From Herbidospora galbida (GTDB taxonomy: Bacteria > Actinomycetota > Actinomycetes > Streptosporangiales > Streptosporangiaceae), in assembly GCF_005233835.1 (NCBI RefSeq), contig NZ_SZQA01000011.1, positions 1-64,000 of the forward strand: DNA of 64,000 nucleotides, in the 5' to 3' direction. Below, piece after piece: positions 2,566-27,963 of the stretch. A program made the translations under genes and the position numbers. Position 1 is the first letter of the stretch, and each line of letters starts with the position of its first letter. The notes under the pieces were generated by a model. It had not been told where the DNA came from and did no database searches. It saw nothing but the letters and a program-made list of their open reading frames with translations.

Positions 2566-3661
2566 GCCCGCGCAGCAGGTCGGCGGGCTCGCGCCCCAGA
2601 TGCCGCAGCACGCAGCACATGTGCGAGAAGACGGCCTCGGCGCGCGGATAGCGGTCGGTCGAGGCGGCACGCGCGTGCGCCTCGAAGGCGGCGATCAGGG
2701 CTTCGGGGTAGTCGGCCAGGTAGACGCCGGAGATGCGCGGCGCGAACATCGACAGCTCGCGGTCGAGCTGCCAGTAGTAGGACACCAGGTCGGTGAGCGG
2801 CTCACATGCCTTGACCAGGTCGTCGTGGTTCTCGAAGCGGGGCACCGGGTGGTCGTGGTCGCAGACGGGCACCTCGTCGATCGGCACCACCTCCGGCCGT
2901 CCGGTGTCGAGCGGCACGTCGGGGAACTCGATCTCGTTCTCGCCCCCGCTCTCCAGGAGGATCCGGCGGGCCGTGGCCAGCGGCGGATAGCCGAGGGTCA
3001 GCCCGCGCACGGCCCTGGGGAGCTCGGTGAAGGCGTCCATGCCGGCGAAGGTGTGGTTGGCGGGTGATTCCTTGCGGTGCGACAGCAGGCCCCAGGCGGC
3101 CGTCTCGGCCGCCTCCGGGGGCAGCACGTCGCGGTAGTAGGCCACGAGCGCGTCGAGTTCGAACAGCTCCCCGTACGTCTCCTCGCGGCCTGCGGTGATG
3201 TGCAGGGCGTTGCCGTCGACGCGTTCGCGGTGGTACTCCAGCCCCACTCTGCGGGCCCGGATGCACCAGGCCTGGGCCTCGTCGAGGGGGAGGGTGAACC
3301 GGCCGAACGGCTTGCGCCCCGACAGCAGGGCGCCGGCGATCCAGCGTTCACTCCATGCGGTTCCGTCGTAAGGAGAGGGATCGGCGAGATCTCTTAGTAA
3401 CCCCTGTGAAAGGATCTCGTTCCACGGGCTCACTAGAGAACTTCTGAATCCATTCATGGCGGGTCCGGTGAAATCCCAGATCCGGTATCCGTGCCAGACA
3501 GCCAGTATCCGGGTCCAGGCGCCGAACTCGCTTTCCGCCCGTTGTCCGGCGTAAAGGCCGTGTAATGGGTTGCCGAAGTCGTCCTGGAAGGGCCCGGGTT
3601 GGACCCGTCCTGCGGGGCTCACCGGTGTTCGATCATCAATTAGGGGCGTCCAGCCGCGCAC
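2492..3661 (-). CDS. conserved hypothetical protein, unknown function
   Basis: This is a 389-aa soluble protein that I do not recognise. There is no signal peptide or membrane segment, and it is rich in Trp, Tyr and Asp/Glu. The segment around residues 85-300 (WSERWIAGALLSGR, DALVAYYRDVLPPEA, FAGMDAFTELPRAV) looks like a compact folded domain. The C-terminal 25 residues (Arg/Pro-rich) overlap the XRE-TPR gene. I chose GTG at 3661 because AAAGGAGG lies nine bases upstream; the ATGs at 3685 and 3712 have the Shine-Dalgarno inside or downstream of them. The convergent 74-base overlap with the XRE-TPR gene is unusual. Function is open. Confidence 0.6.
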   Translation of the reverse strand: MRGWTPLIDDRTPVSPAGRVQPGPFQDDFGNPLHGLYAGQRAESEFGAWTRILAVWHGYRIWDFTGPAMNGFRSSLVSPWNEILSQGLLRDLADPSPYDGTAWSERWIAGALLSGRKPFGRFTLPLDEAQAWCIRARRVGLEYHRERVDGNALHITAGREETYGELFELDALVAYYRDVLPPEAAETAAWGLLSHRKESPANHTFAGMDAFTELPRAVRGLTLGYPPLATARRILLESGGENEIEFPDVPLDTGRPEVVPIDEVPVCDHDHPVPRFENHDDLVKACEPLTDLVSYYWQLDRELSMFAPRISGVYLADYPEALIAAFEAHARAASTDRYPRAEAVFSHMCCVLRHLGREPADLLRGLRPPSLRAPGPGPLDHRRGRRSGS

Positions 3662-3860
3662 GGGGCCGGGCCTCCTTTCCGCCATAGGGATTGTCAGGCT
3701 CCCCACCGGCACCTTCAGAAGCGCGCCGAAACCGAAAAGAATTTTGCCCGATCAACGATCGGTCGCGCAATGCACCGAATTACCCAAGGTGGGCATTTTG
3801 CGCTGCACGTGCATCTTCGCGTGCGTTTGAAAGTTACTTTCCCTTATGTGCGGGCCGTAT

Positions 3861-4256
3861 TCACCCTTGGGGGGTGGACGCCAGGTGCTCGCGCAGCACC
3901 CGCCGCTGCGTCGGCAGCGCCTCGGAGTGGCGGATGCGGCCGGCGTCGGTCAGCGTCACGAAGACGCCGCGGCGGTCGTCGGCGCACATCGAGCGGAGCA
4001 CGAACCCCGCCTTCTCAAGGCGGGCGATCAGCCGGGACAGCGCGCTCTGGCTCAGACTGACCCCGGCCGCGAGCTCCTGCACCCGGAACTTCCCGTCGGC
4101 GCTCAGGCATACCCCCTCGACCAGACGGTCGAGGACCTCGAACTCGCTGACGCCGAGCTCGTGCCGGTCTTGGAGCTCCCGTTCCAGGTCGGAGACGATC
4201 GCGGCGTGCCTGGCGGACAGTTCACGCCAAGTCGTGACCACCTCGTTGTCGGTCAT
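3861..4256 (-). CDS. MarR-family transcriptional regulator
   Basis: This 131-aa protein has the MarR winged-helix layout: an N-terminal dimerisation helix (WRELSARHAAIVSDLERELQ), a recognition region (VQELAAGVSLSQSALSRLIARL) and a wing (RSMCADDRRGVFVTLTDAG). The DRRG in the wing is typical. The start is ATG at 4256 (MTDNEV) with AGGAG eight bases upstream; the longer frame from 4304 has no such site. It is divergent from the MFS exporter and the gap between them holds nested palindromes, so it most likely represses both genes and is released by a ligand exported by the pump. The ligand is unknown. Confidence 0.88.
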   Translation of the reverse strand: MTDNEVVTTWRELSARHAAIVSDLERELQDRHELGVSEFEVLDRLVEGVCLSADGKFRVQELAAGVSLSQSALSRLIARLEKAGFVLRSMCADDRRGVFVTLTDAGRIRHSEALPTQRRVLREHLASTPQG

Positions 4257-4300
4257 CGTGTCCACTCCTGCTCTCCCTGCGCGGCACCATAGCACCCCGT

Positions 4301-4350
4301 ACAAGCATATGCAAACGCATTAAATGCTTGTGCATTGAATGCATGTGCAT
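4301..4350. promoter_or_regulatory. probable MarR operator between marR and MFS gene
   Basis: A perfect 8-base inverted repeat, ACAAGCAT (4301-4308) and ATGCTTGT (4324-4331), is separated by 15 bases and encloses ATGC-AAAC-GCAT. Immediately downstream are TGCATT-G-AATGCA (4331-4343) and ATGCA-TG-TGCAT (4339-4350). The size and AT-rich core fit MarR half-sites, and the location between divergent regulator and transporter fits autoregulation. Confidence 0.65.
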
Positions 4351-4353
4351 GTA

Positions 4354-5778
4354 ATGTCGCCGTCCATGATGTCTACTCGTGAGGGCCGCTGGGGGGCCTC
4401 CCTTTGGGGCGTCCTCATCGTGCTCTGCACCGTCGTCTTCCTCGACGGTCTCGACGTTTCGATGGTCGGCGTCGCGCTGCCGTCCATCCAGGCCGAACTC
4501 GGCATGTCGACCTCGGCGCTCCAGTGGGTGGTGAGCGGGTACGTCCTCGGTTACGGCGGCCTGCTGCTCCTCGGCGGACGGACCGCCGATCTGCTGGGAC
4601 GACGTCGGGTCCTGCTCGTCGCGCTGGCCGTGTTCGCCTTCGCCTCGCTGCTCGGCGGGATCGTCGACAACGGCGCCCTGCTCATCGCGGCCCGGTTCGT
4701 GAAGGGCATGTCGGCCGCCTTCACCGCGCCGGCCGCACTGTCGATCATCACCACGACCTTCGCCGAAGGGCCCGAGCGCAACCGGGCCCTGAGCATCTTC
4801 ACCGCCTGCGCGGCCAGCGGTTTCTCCCTCGGCCTGATCCTGTCGGGGCTGCTGACCGAACTCGGCTGGCGGTGGACCTTCCTGATGCCCGTGCCGGTCG
4901 CCATCGCGGCCCTGGTCGCGGGGGCCCGCCTGCTGCCCCGCTCGGAGGAGCGCGGGGAGGGCGGCTACGACCTCTTCGGGGCGCTCACCATCACCTCGGG
5001 CATGCTGCTGCTGGTCTACACCGTCGTCGAGGCCCCCGAGGTGGCCCTGGGGCGGACCGTCGCGACCGGGCTCGTCGCCGCCGTGCTGCTGGCCCTGTTC
5101 GTCTGGTGGGAGCTGCGGACCAAGCACCCGCTGGTGCGGCTGGGCATCCTGCGGTCGGCGCCGCTGCGCCGGGCCAACCTCGGGCTCGTCATCCTCTTCG
5201 GCTCCTACGTCGGCTTCCAGTTCGTGGCCATGCAGTACTTCCAGAACATGCTCGGATGGTCGGCGCTGGCCACCTCGCTCGCGTTCCTGCCGGCCGGGCT
5301 GCTCGTCGCGCTGTTCTCCACCCGGGTCGGGTCGCTGGCCGACCGGTTCGGCACCCAGAAGATCGTGCTGGCCGGGTCGGTGTCGCTGGTGCTGGCCTAC
5401 CTGGTCTTCCTGAACATCGACATGGACCCGTCACTGTGGCTGGTCATCCCGGGGATGCTGCTGCTCGGCGGCGCCTTCGCGCTGGCCTTCCCCTCCCTCA
5501 ACATCCAGGGCACCAACGGGGTCGCCGACGCGGAACAGGGGCTCGCGTCGGGGCTCATCAACACCTCCGGCCAGGTCGGCGGGGCGGTCGTGCTGGCCAT
5601 CGTGACGGCCACCTTGACCTCGGGCGCCGGGGGCGGCGACCCGCTGGGGTCGACGCGCGCCGCGATCGTCATCTCGGCCGTGTTCGCGCTGATCGGACTG
5701 GGGATCTCGATCACCGGAGTGGTGGCCGGGAGGAGGCGGCGTACACCCGCTGCGGAACAGGTTCTGGAGGTTGTGTAG
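4354..5778 (+). CDS. MFS drug/metabolite exporter, DHA2 (EmrB/QacA) type
   Basis: A polytopic inner-membrane transporter of about 474 aa. Motif D1 (FLDGLDVSMVGVALPSIQAEL) and the antiporter motif A (GGRTADLLGRRRVLL) are clear. I count roughly 14 hydrophobic segments, as in proton-coupled DHA2 exporters. A second cytoplasmic loop motif (SLADRFGTQKIVLAG) starts the C-terminal half. Start choice is uncertain: ATGs occur in frame at 4339, 4354, 4366 and 4369. I prefer 4354 because the palindromic operator runs to 4350. It is divergent from the MarR gene, which is its likely repressor. The substrate cannot be told. Confidence 0.88.
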   Translation: MSPSMMSTREGRWGASLWGVLIVLCTVVFLDGLDVSMVGVALPSIQAELGMSTSALQWVVSGYVLGYGGLLLLGGRTADLLGRRRVLLVALAVFAFASLLGGIVDNGALLIAARFVKGMSAAFTAPAALSIITTTFAEGPERNRALSIFTACAASGFSLGLILSGLLTELGWRWTFLMPVPVAIAALVAGARLLPRSEERGEGGYDLFGALTITSGMLLLVYTVVEAPEVALGRTVATGLVAAVLLALFVWWELRTKHPLVRLGILRSAPLRRANLGLVILFGSYVGFQFVAMQYFQNMLGWSALATSLAFLPAGLLVALFSTRVGSLADRFGTQKIVLAGSVSLVLAYLVFLNIDMDPSLWLVIPGMLLLGGAFALAFPSLNIQGTNGVADAEQGLASGLINTSGQVGGAVVLAIVTATLTSGAGGGDPLGSTRAAIVISAVFALIGLGISITGVVAGRRRRTPAAEQVLEVV

Positions 5779-16559: not shown

Positions 16560-16745
16560 CGGGAGCTCCTATCCCTCGACCTTGACACTGGAGTGTATGG
16601 ATTCCCACGTCACTACCCTGCGGCGACCCGGCCGTTGACCTGCCGAACCGGCCCCGAGTCATAGCGGCTGCGCATAACCGGTGCTCAGGGCTGATGCGGC
16701 GTCTACGGTGAGGGCGCCATATCGGTGTCCGTGAAGGGAAAAAAG

Positions 16746-17018
16746 ATGAGTCAGAGCTTGCTCGGCGGTGACCCGGCGGAGATGCAGACCATGGCCGCCC
16801 AGTTCACCCAGCAGGCCGACCAGGTCCGCGCGACGATGGCCACCCTCGACCGTGAGGCCGCCAAGGTCGGCTCGGTCTGGACCGGCCCGGGTGCGGAGCG
16901 GTTCCGTGACGCGTGGCAGAACTACCGGGCCGCCTTCCAGCGCATGTCGGAGGAGCTCAACGAGGCGTCCCGGACGATCAACACCTATCGAGGCAACATC
17001 GAGTCCGCCACCCGCTGA
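16746..17018 (+). CDS. WXG100-family secreted protein (ESX substrate)
   Basis: A 90-aa helical protein with a central WTG (SVWTGPGAERF, near residue 44), flanked by two amphipathic helices as in EsxA/EsxB helical hairpins. Such proteins leave through type VII secretion as dimers, with the C-terminal tail recognised by the EccC ATPase. The start is ATG at 16746 with AAGGGA about ten bases upstream; a GTG at 16725 is less likely. It is convergent with the EccC-like gene and shares a terminator hairpin with it. Only one WXG100 gene is present, so it may form a homodimer. Confidence 0.88.
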   Translation: MSQSLLGGDPAEMQTMAAQFTQQADQVRATMATLDREAAKVGSVWTGPGAERFRDAWQNYRAAFQRMSEELNEASRTINTYRGNIESATR

Positions 17019-17064: not shown

Positions 17065-20000
17065 TCAGGGAACGGCTGTCTGGATCGGCGTGGCGTTGCC
17101 CGACACGATCAATAGGCCCCGGCCGACCGGGCCGCCGCCCGTGGCCCCACGGGGGAGGCGCACGTTGAACAGGTCGCCGTCCGCCGGGCTCTGGACCGAC
17201 AGGAGCAGGCCCGTACGGGCCTTGCGGGCCTCCGCCACGAAGCCCCGATACGCCGTCGCCAGGTCGCCCGTGGTCCCCGCGATCAGCAGGCCGTGGTCGC
17301 CGTCTCGCGCCTTCCGGAGGATCTCGTCGAGAGCGGTGCCTAGTGCCGAGTCGGGGGAGATGAGCTCGGCGTCGTCCACGATCACCACGTAGTTCTCCTG
17401 GCCCTCCAGGAGCTTCATCGGGTCGTGCGCCCCGGGCAGGCCGCCGAAGCCACCGCCGGCCGCCGCCTGGTCGTCCTCCCGTACGCTGCGCGCGTTGCCG
17501 TCGAGGACCGCCAGCACGCCCCGCAGCTCCCGCAGCGGGCTCCGGCGCGGAGCGATCACCAGCACCGGCACGTCGCGGTCGAGCAACGACTGGGCCGCCG
17601 TCAGCAGCGTCGAGGAGCGGCCCGAACGCGACGGGCCGGCGATCACCGCGGCCGGGCCCTGGCCCAGCAGGTCGACGCCCATCGGGGCCAGCGCGTCGCC
17701 GCCCGCCCCCAGGAGGGCCCACAGGCGCGAGGGGGGCTGGAAGCCGCGTACGAGACCGAGCGCCTGGTCGGCGGTGATGCGGGCGGGCAGCGCGTCGACC
17801 CGCAGCGGGCGGTTGACCGTCGCGGGGGCGGCCGAGCGGGCGAGGGACTGGAGGGCCGCCACCTGCGCCGGGCCCGAGGGGTCTTCGGCCAGCAGGGCGA
17901 TCTGGCTCTCCACGATGCCGTGTTCGCTCATCGACAGGGCCCGGCCGTTGGGCATCGCCGACGGGACGTTCTTCGCCGGGAGCCCGGCCAGGCCGTAGTC
18001 GGCCGGGTCGGCCAGCCGCAGCACGAGCCGGTCGTCGAACACCGTCGAGATCTGGCCGATCAGGCCCGACCGGTCGGAGGTCACCACTGCCCGCAGGCCC
18101 ACGGCGGGGCCCTCGCGGAGCAGCTGCATCACCCCGTCGACCAGCCGTCCGTAGTCATAGTTCTCGAAGGCCGCGACGAAGCCCTCCCACCGGTCGATCA
18201 TCAGCAGCAGCCACGGCTCCTTCAGGCCCGCCGCTCGGGCCTCGGCCAGGGACGCGAAACCGGCCTCGGCCAGCAGTTGCTGCCGCCGGGCGATCTCGGC
18301 GCGGAGCCGGGCCAGCAGCCGTTCGACGCGGTCGAGCTGGTCGCGGGTGACGACCGCGCCGCAGTGGGGCAGGGCGACCAGCGGCAGCAGCGCGCCGGAG
18401 CCGCAGTCGATCGCGTGCAGGTGGAGGTCGTCGGCGGTGACCTGGGTGGCCAGCGATCCGGCGATGGTGCGCAGGGCGGTCGAGCGGCCGCTGCGGGCGG
18501 TGCCGGCGATCAGCAGGTGACCGGGGCCCAGCGTCAGGGGGCGGCGGCGCTGCGCCCACGGCAGGTCGGTCACGCCGAACGCGATCGTCTCGCCGTCGAC
18601 CTCGGGCAGCGCGACCTGATCGGTCAGCGGGGGCAGCCAGGGGCTCGGCTGCTTCGGCACCCCGCGCGACACCTCGATCACCCGGTCGACCAGGCGGGCC
18701 AGGTCGGTCGTGCCGGTCAGCTCGGAGACCAGGGTGCTCGCCGGCGGACGCCCAAGGGCCTCCCAGGGCAGGTCGGTCACCCGTACCTGTCCGGGCGGCC
18801 CGCCCCCGCCGGGCGCCCGCCCCCCGATGCGAGCGGCCTGGACGGCCACCGCCGGCCCCGCGCCCGACCGGACGTAACAACGCCCGGGGGTGGACTTGGG
18901 GATGTGGGCGGCCTCCGGCCCGTCGATGACGTCGGCCGACTCGCGGGCGTCGGTGACCCGAAGCGCGATGCGGAGCGACGTGTTGGCCTGGATGTCGGCG
19001 GTCACCACACCGGCGGGGCGCTGGGTGGCGAGGATGAGGTGGATGCCCAGCGACCGGCCCCGGCGGGCGATGTCGACCAGGCCCTCGACGAACTCGGGCA
19101 GCTCCGCGACCAGGGCGGCGAATTCGTCGATGATCAGCACCAGGCGGGGCATGGGTTCCCGGACGCCGGTCGTCCGGACGGCGGCCCGGCCGAAGATGCC
19201 GGGCGCGGTGGCCTGCCGGACGCCGGTCGCGCCCATGATCCAGGTCGTGCCGCGTTCTTCGAGGTAGTCGTCGATGTCCTTGGCCCCGGCGTCGAGCAGC
19301 AGCCGTTCGCGGCGGCGGATCTCGGCGGCCAGCGACGCCAGGGCGCGCTGGGTGAGGTGGGCGTCGAGGTCGCTGACCATGCCGACCGTGTGGGGCAGCC
19401 GGACGCACTCCTTGAACGCCGCGCCGCCCTTGTAGTCGACCAGCACGAACGTCATCTCGTCGGGCCGGTTCACCGCCGCCAGCGAGCTGATCAGCGTCTG
19501 CAGCAGCTCCGACTTGCCCGCGCCCGTCGTTCCGGCGATCAGCGCGTGCGGGCCGTCGCGCCGCAGGTCGACCGCGAACGGGCCGTCGGGACCCACGCCC
19601 AGGATCGCCCGGGTCGACCGGCCGGGATTGTCCGGTACGTCGATCAGGTCGAGCAGCCGCGCGGAGTCGGGCAGCGCGGCCGACGGGTCGTCGCGGCTCA
19701 CGTCGCGAAGGGGCGCCAGCGAGCGCGCCAGCCGGTCGGCCCACGCGGGGGAGACCTGGTCGGGGCGGATCGCGCCGAGCGCGTCGAGACCGCCGCCGCG
19801 CAGCCGGATCGTGCCGTCGTCCTCGCAGGCCACGACCGTCGCGCACTCCTCCGGCAGGAGCGACTGGGCGTCGTCGATCGCGATCGTGTAGACCCCGGCG
19901 GGCGGGCCCTGGCGCAGCACCTGGGGCATGCCGGGCAGCGCCCGCATCGCCTGGGCGCCGTCGAGTACGACCAGCACGTCGTAGGGGCGCTCGTCGTAGG

Positions 20001-21567
20001 TGCCGAAGGCCGGTTCGGCCTGTTTGGGGGCGCCCCGGCCCAGGTCGTTCCAGCTCGACGGGCCGCCCGTCAACCGGCCCGGCTTCAGCAGCGGGCCGCC
20101 CTCGTCGCCCTGGCGTTCGGTGATCAGGGCGGCCAGCTCGGCCACCCGCCGGGCGGCCGACTCGAGGTCGCCGCCGACCGAGGCCAGGCTGCCGGTCGCG
20201 TGGGTGACGCAGTGGGGCAGCCAGCGCACCCAGCCCCACTGCGACGCGCCGTCGGGGCTCGCCGACAGTACGACGATCGCCAGGTCGCGGGGGCTGTGCA
20301 GGGTGGCCGCCTGGGCCACCAGCCAGCGGGCGACCGCGAGAGCGTCCCGCCGGGGGCCGGTCACCCCGGCCACGCCCAGCCGCCGCATCGCCAGCGCCAC
20401 CGGGACGTCGCGGGCCGGCGGCACGAGTTCGGGGGCGGGCGGCTCGAAGACGATCTCGGCGGGCAGGTCGGCCAGGCCCACCCGCAGCCGCAGCGCGTCG
20501 GGGTCGTGGGTGCGCCGCTCCCACAGCCGCCGCCGGGGGCCGGTCGCGGTCAGCAGCATCTCGGCCGGGTCGGGGGCCGCCGCGCGCCGGGCCGCCTCGT
20601 CGGCCGCGCGGGCCTTCTCGACCGCGCGGCGGAAGGCCTCCATGGCCGCCTTGTGGTCTTTCACCGCCTGGCGGTGCTGCTTGCGGCCGTGCCGCCGGTC
20701 GCTCGCCCACTGGCCGATCATGATCATCGGGGTCATGAAGGCGATGAGCAGGAAGTACCAGTTCTGGAACGCCCACGCCATGACCAGCCCGAACGCCGCC
20801 GGCAGGAAGGCCGCCAGCAGTTGCAGCCGGGCCCCCTCGGCCCGGCGGGGCTCCTGCGGCACCTCGATCTTGGCCACCCGCTCGGGCGGCACCAGCCGGG
20901 GCGGCCGGTTGTACGCCAGCCCGCCGTCGGGCAGCGCGTCGAGATGGGCGTCGGGCGGCTCGACGCGGCCGACCGTGAAGACCGAGTGGCCGATCGCCAG
21001 CACGCCGTCTTCGGGCCAGTCGACCGGCTCGGTCACCGGTTCACCGGCCAGCCGCAGCGGCACCGTGCCGACCGGCTCGACCGTGATCGCGGTCGGGCTC
21101 AGCCGGACCACCGCCGCCTCGGGCGGGAGAAGAGGGTCGGCCACCGCCACGGCGCACGCCGGATCGCCGCCGATCACGTGTGCGCCAAGCCCCAGGCGGT
21201 GGACCGACCCGGCTCCCGGGCCACCGGAGACCCGCAACTCGGCCGTGCCGCCGGGCTCCTCGACCACGGTGGCGGCCGCCCCGGCGGGGTCGAGCGCCAC
21301 CCGGTCGCCGTCGCGCAGCAGGCCGAACACGCGCGCGTCGGCGGGCAGCGGCCGGCCGTCGAGCCAGAGCACCCCGTCGTGGGCCGCCTCGTGGACCGCC
21401 TCCCGGTCGATGCCGTACGGCGCCCGCGCACGCGGGAGCCGGACGACGTTGCCCAGGTTGCGGGTGTCGAGCGCGGCCGCCAGGCCGGTGGCCGTGGTCG
21501 ACTCGTCGCCGTCGACGATCACGTCGCGGTGACCGGCGCCGCCGACGACGGTGAGGGTGATCCGCAT
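17065..21567 (-). CDS. EccC-like FtsK/SpoIIIE ATPase of type VII secretion
   Basis: A 1500-aa membrane ATPase. The N-terminus (1-220) looks like ubiquitin-like plus FHA-like domains, as in YukB/EssC. Two close membrane segments lie at about 249-287. Three ATPase domains follow. The first has an intact Walker A (GTTGAGKS, about 679-686) and Walker B (LVLIIDEF). The second and third read GTARSGRS and GPSRSGRS, with Arg in place of the Walker lysine, so only the first is likely to hydrolyse ATP normally. Residues upstream of 21567 are probably untranslated. No EccB, EccD, EccE or mycosin gene is in the window. It is convergent with the WXG100 gene, its likely substrate, and divergent from the Tad operon. 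Confidence 0.9.
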   Translation of the reverse strand: MRITLTVVGGAGHRDVIVDGDESTTATGLAAALDTRNLGNVVRLPRARAPYGIDREAVHEAAHDGVLWLDGRPLPADARVFGLLRDGDRVALDPAGAAATVVEEPGGTAELRVSGGPGAGSVHRLGLGAHVIGGDPACAVAVADPLLPPEAAVVRLSPTAITVEPVGTVPLRLAGEPVTEPVDWPEDGVLAIGHSVFTVGRVEPPDAHLDALPDGGLAYNRPPRLVPPERVAKIEVPQEPRRAEGARLQLLAAFLPAAFGLVMAWAFQNWYFLLIAFMTPMIMIGQWASDRRHGRKQHRQAVKDHKAAMEAFRRAVEKARAADEAARRAAAPDPAEMLLTATGPRRRLWERRTHDPDALRLRVGLADLPAEIVFEPPAPELVPPARDVPVALAMRRLGVAGVTGPRRDALAVARWLVAQAATLHSPRDLAIVVLSASPDGASQWGWVRWLPHCVTHATGSLASVGGDLESAARRVAELAALITERQGDEGGPLLKPGRLTGGPSSWNDLGRGAPKQAEPAFGTYDERPYDVLVVLDGAQAMRALPGMPQVLRQGPPAGVYTIAIDDAQSLLPEECATVVACEDDGTIRLRGGGLDALGAIRPDQVSPAWADRLARSLAPLRDVSRDDPSAALPDSARLLDLIDVPDNPGRSTRAILGVGPDGPFAVDLRRDGPHALIAGTTGAGKSELLQTLISSLAAVNRPDEMTFVLVDYKGGAAFKECVRLPHTVGMVSDLDAHLTQRALASLAAEIRRRERLLLDAGAKDIDDYLEERGTTWIMGATGVRQATAPGIFGRAAVRTTGVREPMPRLVLIIDEFAALVAELPEFVEGLVDIARRGRSLGIHLILATQRPAGVVTADIQANTSLRIALRVTDARESADVIDGPEAAHIPKSTPGRCYVRSGAGPAVAVQAARIGGRAPGGGGPPGQVRVTDLPWEALGRPPASTLVSELTGTTDLARLVDRVIEVSRGVPKQPSPWLPPLTDQVALPEVDGETIAFGVTDLPWAQRRRPLTLGPGHLLIAGTARSGRSTALRTIAGSLATQVTADDLHLHAIDCGSGALLPLVALPHCGAVVTRDQLDRVERLLARLRAEIARRQQLLAEAGFASLAEARAAGLKEPWLLLMIDRWEGFVAAFENYDYGRLVDGVMQLLREGPAVGLRAVVTSDRSGLIGQISTVFDDRLVLRLADPADYGLAGLPAKNVPSAMPNGRALSMSEHGIVESQIALLAEDPSGPAQVAALQSLARSAAPATVNRPLRVDALPARITADQALGLVRGFQPPSRLWALLGAGGDALAPMGVDLLGQGPAAVIAGPSRSGRSSTLLTAAQSLLDRDVPVLVIAPRRSPLRELRGVLAVLDGNARSVREDDQAAAGGGFGGLPGAHDPMKLLEGQENYVVIVDDAELISPDSALGTALDEILRKARDGDHGLLIAGTTGDLATAYRGFVAEARKARTGLLLSVQSPADGDLFNVRLPRGATGGGPVGRGLLIVSGNATPIQTAVP

Positions 21568-22115
21568 CGGCGGTACTCCAAGGGGATCGGTGGCGGGGTC
21601 ACCGTACAGAGACGGCGCGTCACCACGGCGGTGTATGACCGAATCGGTTGGTGTGTGGACAAGGCCGCATCCCTGTGGGTAACCCTGTGGATAACGGGGC
21701 CGCATTCACGGAGCGGCTGCCGGGGCACCCTGCTGCCAAGTGGGGCCTTTGCCGGGTTCTTCCGCGCCGGATCCACCCTGTTCACCTGGCGTTCCTGTGG
21801 AAAACCGGTGGGTTGTCCACAGGCGCCCGGGATGCTCGGGCGACTTATACCGAAATTCCATATCTGTTGCGGTTACGCCCGCCTCCAGTGTTATACGAAA
21901 GAGGCTGGGGTAATTGTGGCTTTTGTGACCCGTGGGACTTCTCGCCCCGTCTACCTGGGAAAACGGGTGAAGGTGCTGTTCTCTTTGACGGCGTGACCTA
22001 TAACCGATAAGCATGGCTCGCCATTTTTCGGAACTCCCGGGTTCGGCGATGTCCATAATGGCGTGATATTTCGTCGCGAATCCTAAATTGCTTTTGATCT
22101 GGGAGTTCCCTGCCC
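21568..22115. other. 548-base divergent intergenic region upstream of eccC and the Tad operon
   Basis: There is no convincing gene here. It holds the DnaA-box-like cluster at 21654-21821, a possible sigma-70-like promoter toward the Tad operon (TTGCGG at 21867-21872, 18 bases, TTATAC at 21891-21896) and a small inverted repeat ATGGC-TC-GCCAT at 22013-22024. The part from about 21840 to 22090 is clearly AT-richer than the genes on either side. Confidence 0.5.
21654..21821. promoter_or_regulatory. cluster of five DnaA-box-like 9-mers
   Basis: Read as TTNTCCACA, the 9-mers are: 21654-21662 minus (TTGTCCACA), 21674-21682 minus (TTACCCACA, one mismatch), 21686-21694 minus (TTATCCACA), 21796-21804 minus (TTTTCCACA) and 21813-21821 plus (TTGTCCACA). 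TTGTCCACA is the usual box in high-GC actinomycetes. No dnaA or dnaN is nearby, so this is probably not oriC; DnaA titration or DnaA control of the flanking genes is possible. Confidence 0.5.
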
Positions 22116-22817
22116 ATGAGGACCAGCGAGAAGACCGTCCGGGACGCCCCCCGCCCCGTCAACGGCTCCCCCGTCGATCGGCCCACCCTCTCCGGACCGG
22201 CCTCGCGCAAGCTGCCGGTGCCACCACGGGAGCGCAAACCCGCGCTCGCGGCCGTCGCCGTGCTTCTCATCATCGGCGGCGCCCTCACCAGCACCCTCCT
22301 CGTCATGCGCAGCGGCGACCGCGTCTCGGCCGTCGGCGTCGCCGAGCAGATCGGCGCCGGGCAGCAGATCCCGGTCGCCGCGCTGCGCGAGGTGCAGATC
22401 GCCGACACCGGGATCGCGTACGTCCCCTGGCGCCACCGCGACCAGGTCGGCAAGACCTTCGCCGCCGTCACCCTGCTGCCCGGCACGCTGCTGACCGAGA
22501 CGATGGTCACGAGCGACAGCGAGGAGGTCGGGCCCAACCGGGCCCGCGTCGGGCTCTCGCTCAAGGCGGGGCAGTATCCGTCGGGGCTGACCGCCGGCGA
22601 CGTCGTGCAGGTCATCTACGTGCCGGGCAACGCGCGGGCGGGAGCCGTGCCGCAGAAGGTGCTGGTGCCCTCCGCGCGGGTGCACAGCGTCGGGTCGTCG
22701 GAGCGGGGCGCCTCCGGGCTGGTCACCGTGATCGTCGACGCCTCGCTGTCGCCGCAGGTCGCGGCGTTCGCCTCGACCGGGGAGATCGCCCTGGCGGTGC
22801 TCCCGGGGGCCAGGTAG
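22116..22817 (+). CDS. cpaB: CpaB/RcpC-like Flp pilus assembly protein (SAF domain)
   Basis: A 233-aa membrane-anchored protein. A cytoplasmic Pro/Arg-rich N-terminus, one transmembrane segment (ALAAVAVLLIIGGALTSTLL, about 43-62) and an extracytoplasmic SAF domain (VGVAEQIGAGQQIPVAALREVQ, near 73-94) are visible. A second segment (VGLSLKAGQYPSGLTAGDVV) matches the CpaB C-terminal region. CpaB proteins guide the pilus through the envelope; in this monoderm there is no secretin, so it probably acts at the peptidoglycan. It is the first gene of the Tad operon, with GGGAG upstream of its ATG and three bases before the next gene. Confidence 0.82.
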   Translation: MRTSEKTVRDAPRPVNGSPVDRPTLSGPASRKLPVPPRERKPALAAVAVLLIIGGALTSTLLVMRSGDRVSAVGVAEQIGAGQQIPVAALREVQIADTGIAYVPWRHRDQVGKTFAAVTLLPGTLLTETMVTSDSEEVGPNRARVGLSLKAGQYPSGLTAGDVVQVIYVPGNARAGAVPQKVLVPSARVHSVGSSERGASGLVTVIVDASLSPQVAAFASTGEIALAVLPGAR

Positions 22818-22820
22818 CCG

Positions 22821-23561
22821 ATGGCGCTGATCGTGCTCGCCGCCGACAAGGGCGCGCCCGGGGTCACCACCGCGGCGACCGCTCTGGGGGCCGTGTGGCC
22901 GCGTCCGGTGCTGCTGGCCGAGTGCGACCCGTCCGGGGGAGACCTCGCCTATCGGCTGCCGGCGGCCGACGGCGGGGTGCTCAACCCGGCCCGGGGGCTG
23001 CTCAGCCTCGGCGCGGTGGCCCGGCGGGGGCTCCACCCCGACCAGGTGTACGAACACACCCAGCGGCTCGTCGGCGGCCTCGACGTGCTGGCCGGGCTGA
23101 CCAACGGCGAGCAGGCGGCCGGGCTGACCTGGCTCTGGGGCCCTCTGGGTCGCTCGTTCGCCGCGCTCGACCACGCCGACGTGCTCGCCGACTGCGGGCG
23201 ACTGGGCGTACAGCCCGCCATCAACGAGCTGGTCGACGAGGCCGACCAGATCATCCTGTTCACCCGGGCCAGCCTCGACCACGTCGCCCACTTACGCGAG
23301 CGGCTCACCCTGCTGAAGCGGCGGGTGGGCGTGGTCGTGGTCGCCGATCCGCGCAACTACCGGCCCTCCCTCGACGAGGTGCGGCGCATCGTGTCGGGCT
23401 GGGACGTCTCCTTCGTCGGCGGCATCGCCTACGACCCCAAGGGCGCCGAGCTGCTGCGCGGCGAATGGGGCGGCCGGCTGGAGCGCAGCCCGCTCATCCG
23501 GACCGCCCGCGAACTCGCCGGACGGCTGGCCGGCCACCTCCAGAAGAAGGTGGCCCAGTGA
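22821..23561 (+). CDS. CpaE/TadZ-like MinD-family protein with degenerate Walker A
   Basis: A 246-aa P-loop protein in the position of TadZ/CpaE, which places the pilus machine in the cell. The Walker A region reads KGAPGVTT: the MinD signature lysine is kept, but the second lysine of GKT is replaced by Val, which predicts weak or no ATP hydrolysis. The segment DVLADCGRLG fits the switch II region (normally DxxG), and VVVVADPRNYRPSLDEV fits the base-specificity strand. The stop overlaps the GTG start of cpaF. Confidence 0.78.
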   Translation: MALIVLAADKGAPGVTTAATALGAVWPRPVLLAECDPSGGDLAYRLPAADGGVLNPARGLLSLGAVARRGLHPDQVYEHTQRLVGGLDVLAGLTNGEQAAGLTWLWGPLGRSFAALDHADVLADCGRLGVQPAINELVDEADQIILFTRASLDHVAHLRERLTLLKRRVGVVVVADPRNYRPSLDEVRRIVSGWDVSFVGGIAYDPKGAELLRGEWGGRLERSPLIRTARELAGRLAGHLQKKVAQ

Positions 23562-24865
23562 TCGACCACACGCTCGTCAAACGCTTCCGCCAGGAGGTCG
23601 GCGACCGGCTGGCCCACCAGCGGCGCCTCGACCAGGCCGGCGGCATCCCGCCGATGAGCGGCGAGGACGAACGCCAGTTCGCCCGCGCCCTGATCGCCCA
23701 GGTCCTCGAAGAGTTCGCGCGCGGCGAGATCGGCGTCGGCCGCACCCCGCCGACGGTCGACGAGGAGGAGGCCCTCGCGGCCGGCATCCACGCCGCCCTG
23801 TTCGGCGTCGGCCGCCTGCAGCCGCTCCTCGACGACCCCGAGGTCGAGAACATCGACATCAACGGCTGCGACCGGGTCTTCGTCAGCTACGCCGACGGCC
23901 AGGAGCTCAGCCACGAGCCGGTCGCCGAGTCCGACGACGAGCTGATCGAGCTCATCCAGATCCTCGCGGCCTACTCGGGCCTGTCGTCCCGCCCCTTCGA
24001 CACCGCCAACCCCCAGCTCGACCTGCGCCTTCCCGACGGGTCGCGGTTGTCGGCGGTCATGGACGTCGCCGTGCGGCCCGCGATCTCGATCAGGCGGGCC
24101 CGGCTGGGCAAGGTGTTCCTGACCGACCTGGTCGGCAACGGCACCCTGACGCCCGACCTGGCCCGGTTCCTCGCGGCGGCGGTGCAGGCGCGCAAGAACA
24201 TCATGATCGCCGGATCGACCAACGCCGGGAAGACCACCCTGCTGCGCGCGATCGCCAACGAGATCCCCGTCCACGAACGCCTCATCACCGTCGAACGCGC
24301 CCTCGAACTGGGCCTCGACCAGTTCCCGGAGCTCCACCCGAACGTGGTCGCCTTCGAGCAGCGGCTGCCCAACTCCGAGGGCCAGGGCGAGATCACCATG
24401 GCCGAGCTGGTGCGCCGCTCGCTGCGCATGAACCCGTCGCGGGTCATCGTCGGCGAGGTCCTGGGCGACGAGATCGTGACCATGCTCAACGCGATGACCC
24501 AGGGCAACGACGGCTCGCTGTCGACGATCCACGCCAACTCGTCGATGGAGGTCTTCAACCGCATCGCGACCTACGCCCTGCAGGCCGAGGAGCGGCTGCC
24601 GATCGAGGCGTCCCACATGCTCATCGCCGGGGCGATCGACTTCGTGGTCTTCATCGAGAAGCGCAACGACTACCACCGGGGCGGCGCGCTGAAGCGTTTC
24701 GTCTCCTCCGTCCGCGAGGTCGCGGGCTGCGACGGCCGGGTCCTGTCGTCGGAGATCTTCACCGCCTCCGAGGCCGGCGTGGCCGTGGCGCACGCCCCCA
24801 TCGCCTGCATCGACGAACTCGTCCACCACGGCTACGTGCCGTCGGCCGGGGGTGGCTGGGCATGA
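23558..24865 (+). CDS. cpaF: CpaF/TadA pilus assembly ATPase
   Basis: A 435-aa hexameric secretion ATPase of the GspE/VirB11 superfamily that powers pilin assembly. The N-terminal helical part is followed by the ATPase core: Walker A GSTNAGKTT (about residue 220), the Asp box around ITVERALELGLDQ, Walker B-like RVIVGEVLGDE, and the His box GSLSTIHANSS. The start is GTG at 23558, overlapping the cpaE stop. The stop overlaps the ATG of tadB. Length and motifs are normal for the family. Confidence 0.94.
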   Translation: MIDHTLVKRFRQEVGDRLAHQRRLDQAGGIPPMSGEDERQFARALIAQVLEEFARGEIGVGRTPPTVDEEEALAAGIHAALFGVGRLQPLLDDPEVENIDINGCDRVFVSYADGQELSHEPVAESDDELIELIQILAAYSGLSSRPFDTANPQLDLRLPDGSRLSAVMDVAVRPAISIRRARLGKVFLTDLVGNGTLTPDLARFLAAAVQARKNIMIAGSTNAGKTTLLRAIANEIPVHERLITVERALELGLDQFPELHPNVVAFEQRLPNSEGQGEITMAELVRRSLRMNPSRVIVGEVLGDEIVTMLNAMTQGNDGSLSTIHANSSMEVFNRIATYALQAEERLPIEASHMLIAGAIDFVVFIEKRNDYHRGGALKRFVSSVREVAGCDGRVLSSEIFTASEAGVAVAHAPIACIDELVHHGYVPSAGGGWA

Positions 24866-25743
24866 TCCCGTTCGATCCGCTCGTGATCCTGGCCGGCGCG
24901 GCCGCCGGCGGCGGCCTGTTCCTGCTCTTCCTCTCCCTGTACGGTCTGCGCCCGCGCCCCGCCTCACCCGACACCGGCGCCGAGCGGCTGCGATGGTTCC
25001 AGTCCCTGACCACCCGGGGAGCGATCGCGGCCATCGCGGGCGGGCTGACGCTGGTGGTGACCGGCTGGCCGGTCGTGGCCGTCGGCGCGGTGCTCCTGGT
25101 GATCGCCTGGAAGGGCTTCACCGGCGGCGCGGCCGAGGAACGCGCCGCGATGAAGCGCCTCGAAGGCCTCGCCGCCTGGGCCGAGTCGCTGCGCGACACC
25201 ATCGCGGGCGCGGCCGGCCTCGAACAGGCCATCCCCGCCTCGATCAGGGCCGCCGCCCCCATGCTCCAGCCCCACCTGCGCGCCCTGGTCGACCGCCTGC
25301 GGGCCAGGATGCCCCTCGGCGATGCCCTCCGGATGTTCGCCGACGAACTCGACGACCCGTCGGCCGACCTGGTGGTCGCGGCGCTGATCCTCAACTCCCG
25401 CCTCCGGGGGCCCGGCCTGCGCGACGTGCTCTCGGCCCTGGCCGTCTCGGCCCGTGAGGAACTCGACATGCGCCGCCGCGTGGAGGCCGAACGCCGGTCG
25501 ACCCGGCGCAGCGTCCAGATCGTGGTCGGCACGGCCCTGGCCTTCGCGGCCTTCCTGGTCATCGCCAACCGGGACTACGTGGCCGAATACGACTCCCTGC
25601 TCGGCCAGGCCGTGCTCGTGGTGGTGGCGGCGCTGTTCGGCGCGGGGTTCGCGTGGATGCGCCGCCTGGCCCGCTTCGACAAGCCGGGCCGCATCCTGGC
25701 CCCTTACCGACGCCCGGAACCGGCGGAGGCGGTGAGCCCATGA
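24862..25743 (+). CDS. tadB: TadB-like type II secretion F domain protein
   Basis: A 293-aa inner-membrane platform protein. N-terminal segments (VILAGAAAGGGLFLLFLSLYG and the next two hydrophobic stretches) are followed by a cytoplasmic T2SSF domain (LEGLAAWAESLRDTIAGAAGLEQAI, near 100-125, and LRDVLSALAVSAREEL) and C-terminal membrane segments (TALAFAAFLVIANRDYV, AVLVVVAALFGAGFAWM). It binds the CpaF ATPase and holds pilins. ATGA overlap with cpaF. Confidence 0.88.
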   Translation: MIPFDPLVILAGAAAGGGLFLLFLSLYGLRPRPASPDTGAERLRWFQSLTTRGAIAAIAGGLTLVVTGWPVVAVGAVLLVIAWKGFTGGAAEERAAMKRLEGLAAWAESLRDTIAGAAGLEQAIPASIRAAAPMLQPHLRALVDRLRARMPLGDALRMFADELDDPSADLVVAALILNSRLRGPGLRDVLSALAVSAREELDMRRRVEAERRSTRRSVQIVVGTALAFAAFLVIANRDYVAEYDSLLGQAVLVVVAALFGAGFAWMRRLARFDKPGRILAPYRRPEPAEAVSP

Positions 25744-26000
25744 ACAGCCGGGCATCCGCAGGGCCGATCGGCTCACGCTCACTTACCAGTTGGGGAGTCG
25801 AAAGCTGGCTCGATATGCCGAGATATCGGGCGCGGAAGCGCCCGGTCACCTGCTGGGGCCATCCGGCTCCCGCCAGACCGATCCGGCATGACCCGGCCCG
25901 GCGGTCCTCCCGTGTCAGACCGGGAGCGTCCTTCGAGCAGGGGCCTGGCGTGGCTCTGCGGCATCAGGGCCGCGCCGTCCCCCTGGAGGTGACCTCGTGA
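25740..26000 (+). CDS. small ORF filling the tadB-tadC gap, possibly not a real gene
   Basis: An 86-residue frame starts at an ATG overlapping the tadB stop and ends in a TGA overlapping the GTG of tadC, so it is coupled on both sides. The protein is Arg/Pro-rich and unlike any pilus component I know, and its codon use looks poorer than that of its neighbours. It contains copy C of the dispersed hairpin repeat. It may be an insertion that stayed in frame, which keeps translation coupled across 253 bases, rather than a functional gene. Confidence 0.3.
   Translation: MNSRASAGPIGSRSLTSWGVESWLDMPRYRARKRPVTCWGHPAPARPIRHDPARRSSRVRPGASFEQGPGVALRHQGRAVPLEVTS
25809..25844 (-). repeat. dispersed hairpin repeat, copy C (inverted)
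   Basis: On the minus strand a 7-base stem hairpin (25827-25844) is followed by TCGGCATATCG (plus-strand 25811-25821). It matches copies A and B in layout while the loop sequence differs. It lies inside the tadB-tadC gap. Confidence 0.55.
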
Positions 26001-26935
26001 TCGCGACCGCTTTCGCCGGAGGCGTGCTCGGGCTGGGCATTCTGCTGCTCCTCAGGGCTCTGTTCCCCCCGAGGCCGGGGCTGGCGACCAGGCTCGCCGC
26101 GCTCGACGTCGCCCGGACCGGGGAGGACGCGCCCAAGACCCCGCTCGTCGCGCCCGACGAGGAGGTCAGCGCGTTCCGGCAGGCCCTCGGGCAGCGGCTC
26201 GCCAAGTTCTACGCCGCGCGCGGGTGGGAGGCACGGTCGATCCGGGCCGATCTCACGCTGCTCGGCAAGTCGTTCGAGGGGTTCCTCGCCACGAAGGTCC
26301 TGCTCGCCGTCTCCGGGCTGCTCGCCTTCCCGCTGCTGGTCGGGTGGCTGGCGGTCATGGGGTGGGGGGTGTCGTTCCAGATTCCGCTCTGGGCGGCGCT
26401 GCTGGTCAGCGTGATCTTCTTCTTCCTGCCCGACGTCCAGATCGGCAAGGACGCGGCGGTCCGCCGCCGCGACTTCCGGCACGCCGTCGGGGCGTTCCTC
26501 GACCTGGTCGCCATGAACCTGGCCGGCGGGCGGGGGGTGCCGGAGGCGCTCATGATGGCCGTCTCCGTCGGCACCGGCTCCGAGGTGAACGCCCCCGGCT
26601 CCAACTGGGCGATGGAGCGCATCCGCGAGGCGCTCGCCAACGCCCGGATCGTCGGCATCACCCCCTGGCAGGCCCTCGGGCAGCTCGGCGACGAGATCAA
26701 CGTCGACGAACTGCGGGACCTGTCGGCCGCGCTCGGGCTCGTCGCCGACGACGGCGCCAAGGTGCGGTCGTCGCTGACGGCCCGCGCGGCCACGCTCCGC
26801 AGGCGCGAGCTGGCCGAGATCGAGGGCAAGGCGGGCGAACGTTCGCAGTCGATGCTCGTGGCGCAGCTGCTGCTGTGCGCGGGCTTCGTGATCTTTCTCA
26901 GTTACCCGGCCGCGATGAAAATGTTGGGATCTTGA
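25997..26935 (+). CDS. tadC: TadC-like type II secretion F domain protein
   Basis: A 312-aa inner-membrane protein, the second platform subunit. An N-terminal membrane segment (FAGGVLGLGILLLLRALF) is followed by two central segments (TKVLLAVSGLLAFPLLVGWLA and LWAALLVSVIFFFLP), the cytoplasmic T2SSF domain (FRHAVGAFLDLVAMNLAGGRG, then IVGITPWQALGQLGDEINV) and a C-terminal segment (LVAQLLLCAGFVIFLSYPA). The start is GTG at 25997. The Flp pilin gene starts two bases after its stop. Confidence 0.88.
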   Translation: MIATAFAGGVLGLGILLLLRALFPPRPGLATRLAALDVARTGEDAPKTPLVAPDEEVSAFRQALGQRLAKFYAARGWEARSIRADLTLLGKSFEGFLATKVLLAVSGLLAFPLLVGWLAVMGWGVSFQIPLWAALLVSVIFFFLPDVQIGKDAAVRRRDFRHAVGAFLDLVAMNLAGGRGVPEALMMAVSVGTGSEVNAPGSNWAMERIREALANARIVGITPWQALGQLGDEINVDELRDLSAALGLVADDGAKVRSSLTARAATLRRRELAEIEGKAGERSQSMLVAQLLLCAGFVIFLSYPAAMKMLGS

Positions 26936-26937
26936 AC

Positions 26938-27162
26938 ATGATCGATTACCTGGTGGCGATGATCAGCGTCCGAATCCACAAGGCCAGAACGGCCCCCTCA
27001 CGCGGGGCGTCGGCGGTCGAGTGGGCGATCATCACGGCGATCATCGCCGGGGTGGCGCTGGGCCTGGCCGCGCTCATCCAAGGCCTCGTCGAGTCCCGCT
27101 CGGCCGAGATCACCACGAACTTCGGCGGCGGCGACTCCGGTGGCGGCGGCGGTGGTGAGTGA
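26938..27162 (+). CDS. flp: Flp-family type IVb pilin
   Basis: A 74-aa prepilin. A short basic leader (VRIHKARTAPSRG) is followed by the mature start ASAVEWAIITAIIAGVALGL, with Glu at +5 as required for class III/type IVb pilins cut by a TadV-type peptidase. The C-terminus ends in a short Gly/Ser tail. It should be the main pilus subunit. No prepilin peptidase is in the operon, so processing must come from elsewhere in the genome. Confidence 0.87.
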   Translation: MIDYLVAMISVRIHKARTAPSRGASAVEWAIITAIIAGVALGLAALIQGLVESRSAEITTNFGGGDSGGGGGGE

Positions 27163-27590
27163 GACGTCCTGACCGACGGGACGACGACCGCGGCGCGACC
27201 GTCATCGAGCTCGCGCTGCTCATGCCGGTCGTCCTGGTCGTGGTGCTGCTGATCGTCCAGATGGCCCTCTGGTTCCACGGGCGGCAGGTCGCCGACGCGG
27301 CCGCGCGCGAGGGCGCCAGGATCGCGCGGGCCGGCGACGACGACTGGCAGGGCGCCGCCGAGGCCAAGGCGCAGCAGATCATCCAGGCCATCGGGCCGGA
27401 GATCCTGCAGTCCGCCACGGCGACCGCGTGGGAGGAGGGCGACTCGCGCGGAGTGGAGGTGACGGGCAGCGCGGTGCAGGTCGTGCCGCTGCTGCCCGAG
27501 ATCTCCTTCACGATCACGGCCCGCTTCGGCGGGCCGGTGGAGTGTTTCCGGCCCGACGACGGCAGCGGGGGGTGTGCGCCGGATGAGTGA
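27159..27590 (+). CDS. TadE-like minor pilin
   Basis: A 143-aa protein with a basic leader and RGATVIELALLMPVVLVVVL. The conserved Glu follows the TadE pattern (G-ATVIE) and the membrane segment runs to about residue 35. ADAAAREGARIARAG is the AAREGAR motif typical of TadE. The start is GTG at 27159, overlapping the pilin stop. Minor pseudopilins of this kind are needed for Flp pilus assembly. Confidence 0.82.
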   Translation: MRRPDRRDDDRGATVIELALLMPVVLVVVLLIVQMALWFHGRQVADAAAREGARIARAGDDDWQGAAEAKAQQIIQAIGPEILQSATATAWEEGDSRGVEVTGSAVQVVPLLPEISFTITARFGGPVECFRPDDGSGGCAPDE

Positions 27591-27963
27591 GCGAGGGTCC
27601 ATGTCGGTCGAGACCGTCATGCTGGCGCCCGTCCTGCTGCTCTTCCTGCTGTTCCTGGTCGGCGCCGGACGCGTCGTCGAAGCCCAGGGCGAGGTGAACG
27701 GCGCCGCCCGCGACGCCGCCCGCGCCGCCTCGGTACAGCGCGACAGGAGCGCCGCCGAGGAGGCCGCCACGTCGGCGGCCACCGACGCCCTCGCCGACTG
27801 CCCGCCGGAGGTCTCGATGGCGGGCACCGACTGGCAGGAGGGCGGCGCGGTCCAGGTGACCGTGACCTGCACCCTCGACCTCGACTTCCTCGGCTTCGGC
27901 GCCAGCGTGACGATCACCGGGGACTCCGTCGTCCCCCTCGAACAGTTCCGGAGAGTGGAGTGA
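27583..27963 (+). CDS. second TadE/TadF-like minor pilin
   Basis: A 126-aa protein beginning MSERGSMSVETVMLAPVLLLFLL, which again has a short leader, Glu at +5 and a hydrophobic segment, followed by NGAARDAARAASVQR. It overlaps the preceding gene by eight bases. A GTG nine bases upstream of the chosen ATG (27583) is in frame but less likely. It probably joins the other TadE-like proteins in a tip or priming complex. Confidence 0.78.
   Translation: MSERGSMSVETVMLAPVLLLFLLFLVGAGRVVEAQGEVNGAARDAARAASVQRDRSAAEEAATSAATDALADCPPEVSMAGTDWQEGGAVQVTVTCTLDLDFLGFGASVTITGDSVVPLEQFRRVE

Follow-up and report, generated by a model that had tools for sequence, protein, structure and literature searches.

The five DnaA-box-like sites clustered within 168 bp upstream of eccC in Herbidospora galbida most likely constitute a DnaA-type operator, serving the eccC promoter within a conserved DNA-uptake regulon and most likely bound by DnaA, a reading to which we give a rough probability of 0.6. 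The finding of the earlier note was confirmed, and it is of greater interest than it first seemed. The boxes, their orientation, their distance from the gene, their spacing, their conservation, their recurrence and the composite promoter found at other genes are present in the sequence itself; that they act as an operator, whichever protein occupies them, appears highly probable from these features.

The window (the whole 64,000-nucleotide stretch of DNA that was analysed) carries the cluster between the eccC gene, on the minus strand, and a Tad operon that runs divergently and includes T2SSE, T2SSF and TadE genes. The genes of the locus are as follows:

16725..17018, plus strand: gene for a WXG100 (Esx-like) protein, adjoining eccC
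17065..21567, minus strand: eccC/essC-like FtsK/SpoIIIE ATPase gene of the type VII secretion kind, the likely operator target
22116..22817, plus strand: first gene of the divergent Tad operon, with no Pfam or NCBIfam match, its product taken by us to be a SAF/CpaB-like pilus protein
22821..23561, plus strand: ATPase gene used as the anchor for finding relatives, presumably encoding a TadZ/septum-site-determining-like ATPase
23561..24865, plus strand: gene for a TadA-type secretion ATPase (T2SSE)
24862..25743, plus strand: gene for a T2SSF protein (TadB-like)
25997..26935, plus strand: gene for a T2SSF-like protein (TadC-like), just under the Pfam cut-off
27159..27590, plus strand: gene for a TadE-like protein
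27574..27963, plus strand: gene for a TadE-like protein

The best NCBIfam models for the eccC product were EssC, EccCa and EccCb, all under their curated cut-offs. Through the neighbouring ATPase gene, six Herbidospora genomes were identified as the closest relatives (96-99% identity), the family being Streptosporangiaceae. It had been proposed that DnaA might control the genes on both sides of the cluster. This proposal is supported for eccC as the candidate target, toward which the boxes are oriented with operator-like placement and where they are conserved and recur at DNA-uptake genes, but not for the Tad operon: control of the latter by the cluster was rejected, given that the boxes are directed at eccC and that a conserved promoter-like block belonging to the Tad side lies near 22050, about 240-400 bp from the boxes.

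The sites of the cluster and the putative promoter element of eccC are located as follows:

21601..21606, minus strand: TACGGT, putative -10 element of eccC
21654..21662, minus strand: exact DnaA box TTGTCCACA, nearest to eccC, the start codon being 87 bp away
21674..21682, minus strand: DnaA-box-like TTACCCACA with one mismatch, a variant present twice in the genome's own oriC
21686..21694, minus strand: exact DnaA box TTATCCACA
21796..21804, minus strand: DnaA-box-like TTTTCCACA with one mismatch
21813..21821, plus strand: exact DnaA box TTGTCCACA, in the opposite orientation

The three exact and two one-mismatch 9-mers described at 21654-21821 were thus all found, and the claim that their density is far above chance was borne out. 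Exact TTRTCCACA occurs three times in the window against a mean of 0.20 after shuffling, with one of 100 shuffles reaching three. Of the seven sites in the whole 64 kb that have at most one mismatch, five lie inside the 168 bp; with 5.57 sites expected per window, we calculate for this a Poisson probability of about 5e-12 per stretch. The description of the sites as lying in both orientations is accurate as worded, yet it conceals a polarity: the eccC start codon is at 21567, and all but one of the five sites are minus-strand boxes directed toward this gene. Among the Herbidospora genomes, the intergenic DNA diverges and the boxes remain as conserved islands in it. The TTTTCCACA box of 21796-21804 is kept in five of the six other Herbidospora loci, the sixth having CTATCCACA, and the plus-strand box of 21813-21821 is exact in three of the six. 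Counted from the 5' end of the nearest box, the putative -10 element, as read from the sequence, lies 56 bases downstream; the CTGTACGGT block is conserved in the genus.

Conservation over a wider range was assessed in 81 loci (80 relatives and the window), in 79 of which eccC was found. Within 400 bp upstream of eccC in these 79 loci, 130 sites with at most one mismatch were directed toward the gene and 8 away from it. Between -160 and -50 of eccC, at least one gene-oriented site was present in 38/79 loci and two or more in 34/79, counts that overstate the evidence to the extent that the genomes are related and not independent; on the opposite strand, a single locus had at least one site and none had two or more. 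Among 4000 permuted-motif tests, one reached the 38-locus value and none the 34-locus value. The box nearest to the eccC start codon is mostly located at about 95-107 bp, counted from the box 5' end, and neighbouring boxes are mostly spaced by 18-20 or 30-32 bp, the other spacings being 12 and about 100-110 bp. Streptosporangium and Planobispora display a regular order, TTTTCCACA followed after 19 bp by what is usually TTRTCCACA and by a third box about 90-100 bp further on (up to about 310 bp away in two Planobispora).

When the whole eccC-Tad intergenic stretch was considered, 46 of the 79 loci had two or more gene-oriented boxes, 8 had one and 25 had none. The check for conservation in relatives that had been called for therefore gave a positive answer with a boundary: the boxes are kept in many eccC loci, and an operator of two or more gene-oriented boxes is missing in 33/79. 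On the tree, the trait requires at least 8 changes and clusters by lineage; it is absent from all Microbispora examined, from most Planotetraspora and from Sphaerimonospora. In several Sphaerisporangium loci, a gene that we take to be lipoprotein-like lies between the boxes and eccC (L042, L043, L035 and L039, about 3400-5000), and the boxes remain upstream of this new first gene on that strand. In two of these loci measured by hand, L042 and L035, the nearest box is 226-228 bp upstream of the start of the inserted reading frame, in the same orientation. Some Sphaerisporangium loci also carry a presumably cutA-like gene on the Tad side.

The same kind of site was found upstream of genes for DNA uptake. 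Four orthologous sets, ssbB, yraN, comEA and flp of the second Tad locus, were fetched from 28 relatives spread over the family, and the search covered 220 bp at yraN and ssbB, 890 bp at comEA and 740 bp at flp. At least one gene-oriented box was present upstream of ssbB in 28/28 relatives, of yraN in 25/28, of comEA in 24/28 and of flp in 22/28, where one of the 28 loci stopped just past the anchor gene. In the genome of the window, comM and dprA lie downstream of yraN. Sites directed toward and away from the gene numbered 40 and 2 for ssbB, 42 and 2 for yraN, and 29 and 5 for comEA; the bias at flp is modest (54 vs 21). The nearest box mostly lies at -69 to -73 at yraN and at -94 to -104 at ssbB, and second boxes at these two genes are mostly 17-18 or 29-32 bp further upstream. 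One such site was present in 0.03% of random 110-bp windows of the eccC/Tad loci (n=9441), which are mostly coding, so that intergenic DNA may exceed this figure. An M23 peptidase gene, near dprA in the same genome, also has boxes upstream, and that of Acrocarpospora catenulata has a full composite site, of the type described below (L274 1949-2003 and L099 7492-7556); this peptidase may be a wall hydrolase that serves the uptake of DNA.

At ssbB, yraN, comEA and flp, the proximal box usually runs straight into GAACnnnGTTCGGC, giving TTRTCCACA-GAACnnnGTTCGGC. In 72 pooled proximal sites, selected for matching no fewer than 7 of the 11 fixed letters of this extension, the unselected positions include A at offset 49 and T at offset 53, each in 97% of the sites, that is, a -10 element at constant distance. 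The composite promoter was defined accordingly as TTRTCCACA-GAACnnnGTTCGGC with a -10 element at offset 48-53. Required at 16 or more of 20 positions, the pattern of box plus extension was matched 110 times in 1,849,567 fetched bases against 2 matches for the reversed pattern. Matches were obtained at 26 ssbB loci, 23 comEA loci, 32 yraN loci (class genomes included) and 18 flp loci, the remainder being five rows from the genome of the window that correspond to three distinct sites (one of which heads the second Tad operon), five extra loci that had been chosen for holding box pairs, and one eccC locus, that of a Nonomuraea, which is the sole match among the eccC/Tad loci of the 80 relatives. 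These distances fit a protein that binds immediately ahead of a promoter whose -35 element is not recognisable and that would act as an activator.

Further sites of this type were encountered. At the operon head of the other Tad locus, a putative second operator consists of two boxes 18 bp apart (C62:163003-163029; L093 8004-8030), and its gene-proximal box carries the composite extension at 18/20 positions together with a -10-like element. Composite sites with a -10 element also precede uncharacterised reading frames in Bailinhaonella and Acrocarpospora (L275 1976, L276 2011, L279 2015, L280 2003), which are possible new members of the regulon. A LexA/SOS box was considered for the extension. 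The actinobacterial LexA/SOS box is TCGAAC-N4-GTTCGA, and this candidate was rejected because the composite reads GAAC-N3-GTTC in the 72 pooled sites, not the 4-bp half-site spacing, and no GAAC follows the window's nearest box.

At the eccC gene of the window, the box of the composite promoter is present, while the GAACnnnGTTC extension (GAACnnnGTTCGGC) is absent from the nearest box and the putative -10 element stands at offset 56 instead of 48, a shift of 8 bp away from the box relative to the composite promoter. As its site is without the extension and has a shifted -10 element, eccC in Herbidospora is probably a looser member of the regulon, agreeing in box, orientation, distance and spacing and differing in extension and -10 spacing. 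It should be noted that the extension is also weak at yraN, ssbB and flp of Herbidospora.

Outside the family, a gene-oriented box was found at about -130 to -55 of yraN in 36/68 genomes of other families of the class, with frequencies by family of 5/5 (f16), 8/8 (f17), 4/8 (f22), 2/8 (f4), 0/5 (f24) and 0/3 (f31). The sequence downstream of the box varies between families, and the box itself is kept. In place of GAACnnnGTTCGGC, CCACCAAGATC or a similar sequence follows the box in f16 (L300, L320, L325, L329, L330), and a mostly ATTC-rich sequence in f17 (L293-L328).

The genome as a whole contains 54 exact TTRTCCACA sites against 28 for the reversed pattern. Dense stretches, defined as three or more TTNTCCACA in 250 bp and tallied by eye, number six: the cluster described here, four on contig C34 and one on contig C62. 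Of those on C34, two precede dnaB and dnaA (the latter gene at C34:61141), one is oriC and one lies at 65561-65728; that on C62 is upstream of a pilin gene of the second Tad locus, which has no family match and which we assume to be flp-like. A frequent occurrence of similar clusters elsewhere, or a lack of conservation, had been named as grounds for dismissing the cluster; it proved to be conserved and rare, yet not unique. The dnaB stretch (C34:20436-20575; L092 3437-3576) holds seven boxes with at most one mismatch directly upstream of the gene, six of them directed toward this replicative helicase gene. Oriented box pairs, separated by 18 and 29 bp (L098 2424-2450; L146 2519-2556), precede a metallophosphoesterase gene and a putative permease gene, respectively, the gene before the former being presumably topA. 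Palindromic box pairs on C32 and C40 were rejected as operators: these pairs, of the TTGTCCACA-3 bp-TGTGGACAA type (L094 2770-2790, L095 2551-2571), lie at gene ends and have the look of terminator hairpins, which would mimic DnaA boxes. A third close palindromic pair, on C41, is inside a predicted gene. A second origin was likewise rejected for the cluster itself, dnaA and the dense oriC array beside it being on contig C34.

Which protein reads the boxes is the question on which the strongest alternative turns. DnaA is the likeliest binder because the 9-mer is its known box, because oriC has the same variants and flanks, and because a single protein of the genome has the Bac_DnaA_C domain. 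Indeed, oriC holds 15 boxes with at most one mismatch in the 500 bp examined, including the variants CTGTCCACA, TTTTCCACA and TTACCCACA that are also found in the window and its relatives. G precedes the oriC box in 11/15 cases and follows it in 13/15, and among 128 box sites of the eccC relatives the same flanking positions, which were not used for selection, are G in 81% and 77%. A domain search with Bac_DnaA_C at E up to 10 returned DnaA as the only protein of the genome, and a second DnaA-like protein was rejected as the binder on this ground. Binding by DnaA is thus probable in our judgement. In the alternative, the boxes belong to another regulator: TTRTCCACAGAACnnnGTTCGGC would be recognised by a dimeric competence activator, alone or with DnaA, and the likeness to a DnaA box would be a partial contact or a coincidence. 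The fusion of the proximal box to GAACnnnGTTC at fixed distance at ssbB, yraN, comEA and flp, which most distal boxes do not share, speaks for it, and the dyad suggests that another protein, a dimeric one, acts at the canonical promoters. The variation of the extension between families also counts on its side, the box meanwhile staying. However, conserved boxes that lack the extension are found at eccC and in distal positions, and the base preferences and both flanking G's of the boxes match those of the oriC boxes. We consider this alternative unlikely.

A cluster of the datA kind would be expected to lie without regard to how a nearby gene is oriented or where it starts; the box clusters of S. 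coelicolor include D78. DnaA-box clusters outside oriC are reported to hold back initiation in E. coli, B. subtilis and S. coelicolor (PMC5742627), and the earlier note had offered that the present cluster might titrate DnaA. As a titration or inactivation locus, it would act on replication timing and not on eccC. The proposal agrees with the presence of several boxes away from oriC, five of them within 168 bp of non-coding DNA, and with the restraint that analogous clusters of B. subtilis and S. coelicolor are reported to exert on initiation (PMC5742627). It predicts neither the orientation (130 toward, 8 away) nor the fixed distances from the start codon nor the recurrence, and titration needs no identical pair at ssbB, comEA and yraN; moreover, the cluster is missing from whole genera such as Microbispora. 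On the orientation and recurrence tests, titration is ranked below the operator and appears quite improbable. Chance or base composition, for which it can be said that single boxes do arise randomly in the genome (the 54 exact sites against 28 above), is practically negligible as an explanation of the cluster, being contradicted by the shuffles and the permuted motifs and already refuted by the conservation in relatives.

Taken together, these results lead us to propose that a box-binding protein, most likely DnaA, occupies the gene-directed TTRTCCACA direct repeats upstream of eccC, the last of which would lie some 40-60 bp before the -10 region, and that the bound protein switches eccC transcription, most likely on. 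The genes eccC, ssbB, yraN-comM-dprA, comEA-comEC and flp would form one regulon of DNA uptake and handling, with eccC as its looser member. DnaA as the binder, activation as the effect and competence as the product are what we infer from the arrangement of the sites. A broader scheme can be put forward tentatively, at somewhat less than even odds: the boxes might mark an actinomycete competence regulon in which DnaA, perhaps with a dimeric partner on GAACnnnGTTC, activates comEA-comEC, yraN-comM-dprA, ssbB, the Tad pilus genes and the EccC motor, coupling uptake to the replication-initiation state and placing EccC in DNA transfer.

The recurrence of the boxes before DNA-uptake genes suggests a possible link between chromosome replication and the acquisition of foreign DNA. 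Should the regulator be DnaA, horizontal gene transfer would be wired directly to replication initiation in a phylum that makes many antibiotics. The operator common to comEA, ssbB, yraN-comM-dprA and flp offers a sequence to mutate and DnaA as a candidate protein. How natural transformation is switched on in actinomycetes is an open question, as the excerpt of a 2026 study of Micrococcus luteus indicates, in which upstream signals, regulatory cascade and regulator are still to be identified (PMC12849477). Among the matches listed from the open-licence PMC literature, no report linking DnaA boxes to competence genes in actinomycetes was found.

Several known systems can be compared with the one proposed here. 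Transformation of M. luteus involves two tad loci, comEA-comEC and a DprA orthologue, in the part of the source available (PMC4322843), the same kinds of genes as those that carry boxes here. In Streptococcus pneumoniae, the level of DnaA is also tied to competence: over-supply of DnaA induces it, an effect explained by replication stress, with arrested forks as the trigger according to the authors, and the available text describes no DnaA boxes at competence promoters (PMC8394987). Like datA of E. coli and the clusters of S. coelicolor and B. subtilis, the cluster reported here consists of DnaA boxes distant from oriC; those clusters are described, in the excerpts of the source, as acting on initiation (PMC5742627), whereas the boxes found here are gene-oriented and recur at functionally linked genes. 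A further likeness is with DnaA-regulated promoters, the autoregulated dnaA and others, which have the same TTRTCCACA boxes near the promoter: such boxes stand upstream of the genome's own dnaA, and DnaA boxes are likewise present in the promoter region of eccC. DnaA is an established transcription factor that activates or represses genes, according to a review that uses none of the terms competence, transformation, ssb and pilus (PMC8203912); in the regulon proposed here, its targets would be DNA-uptake genes, read through direct repeats at a fixed distance.
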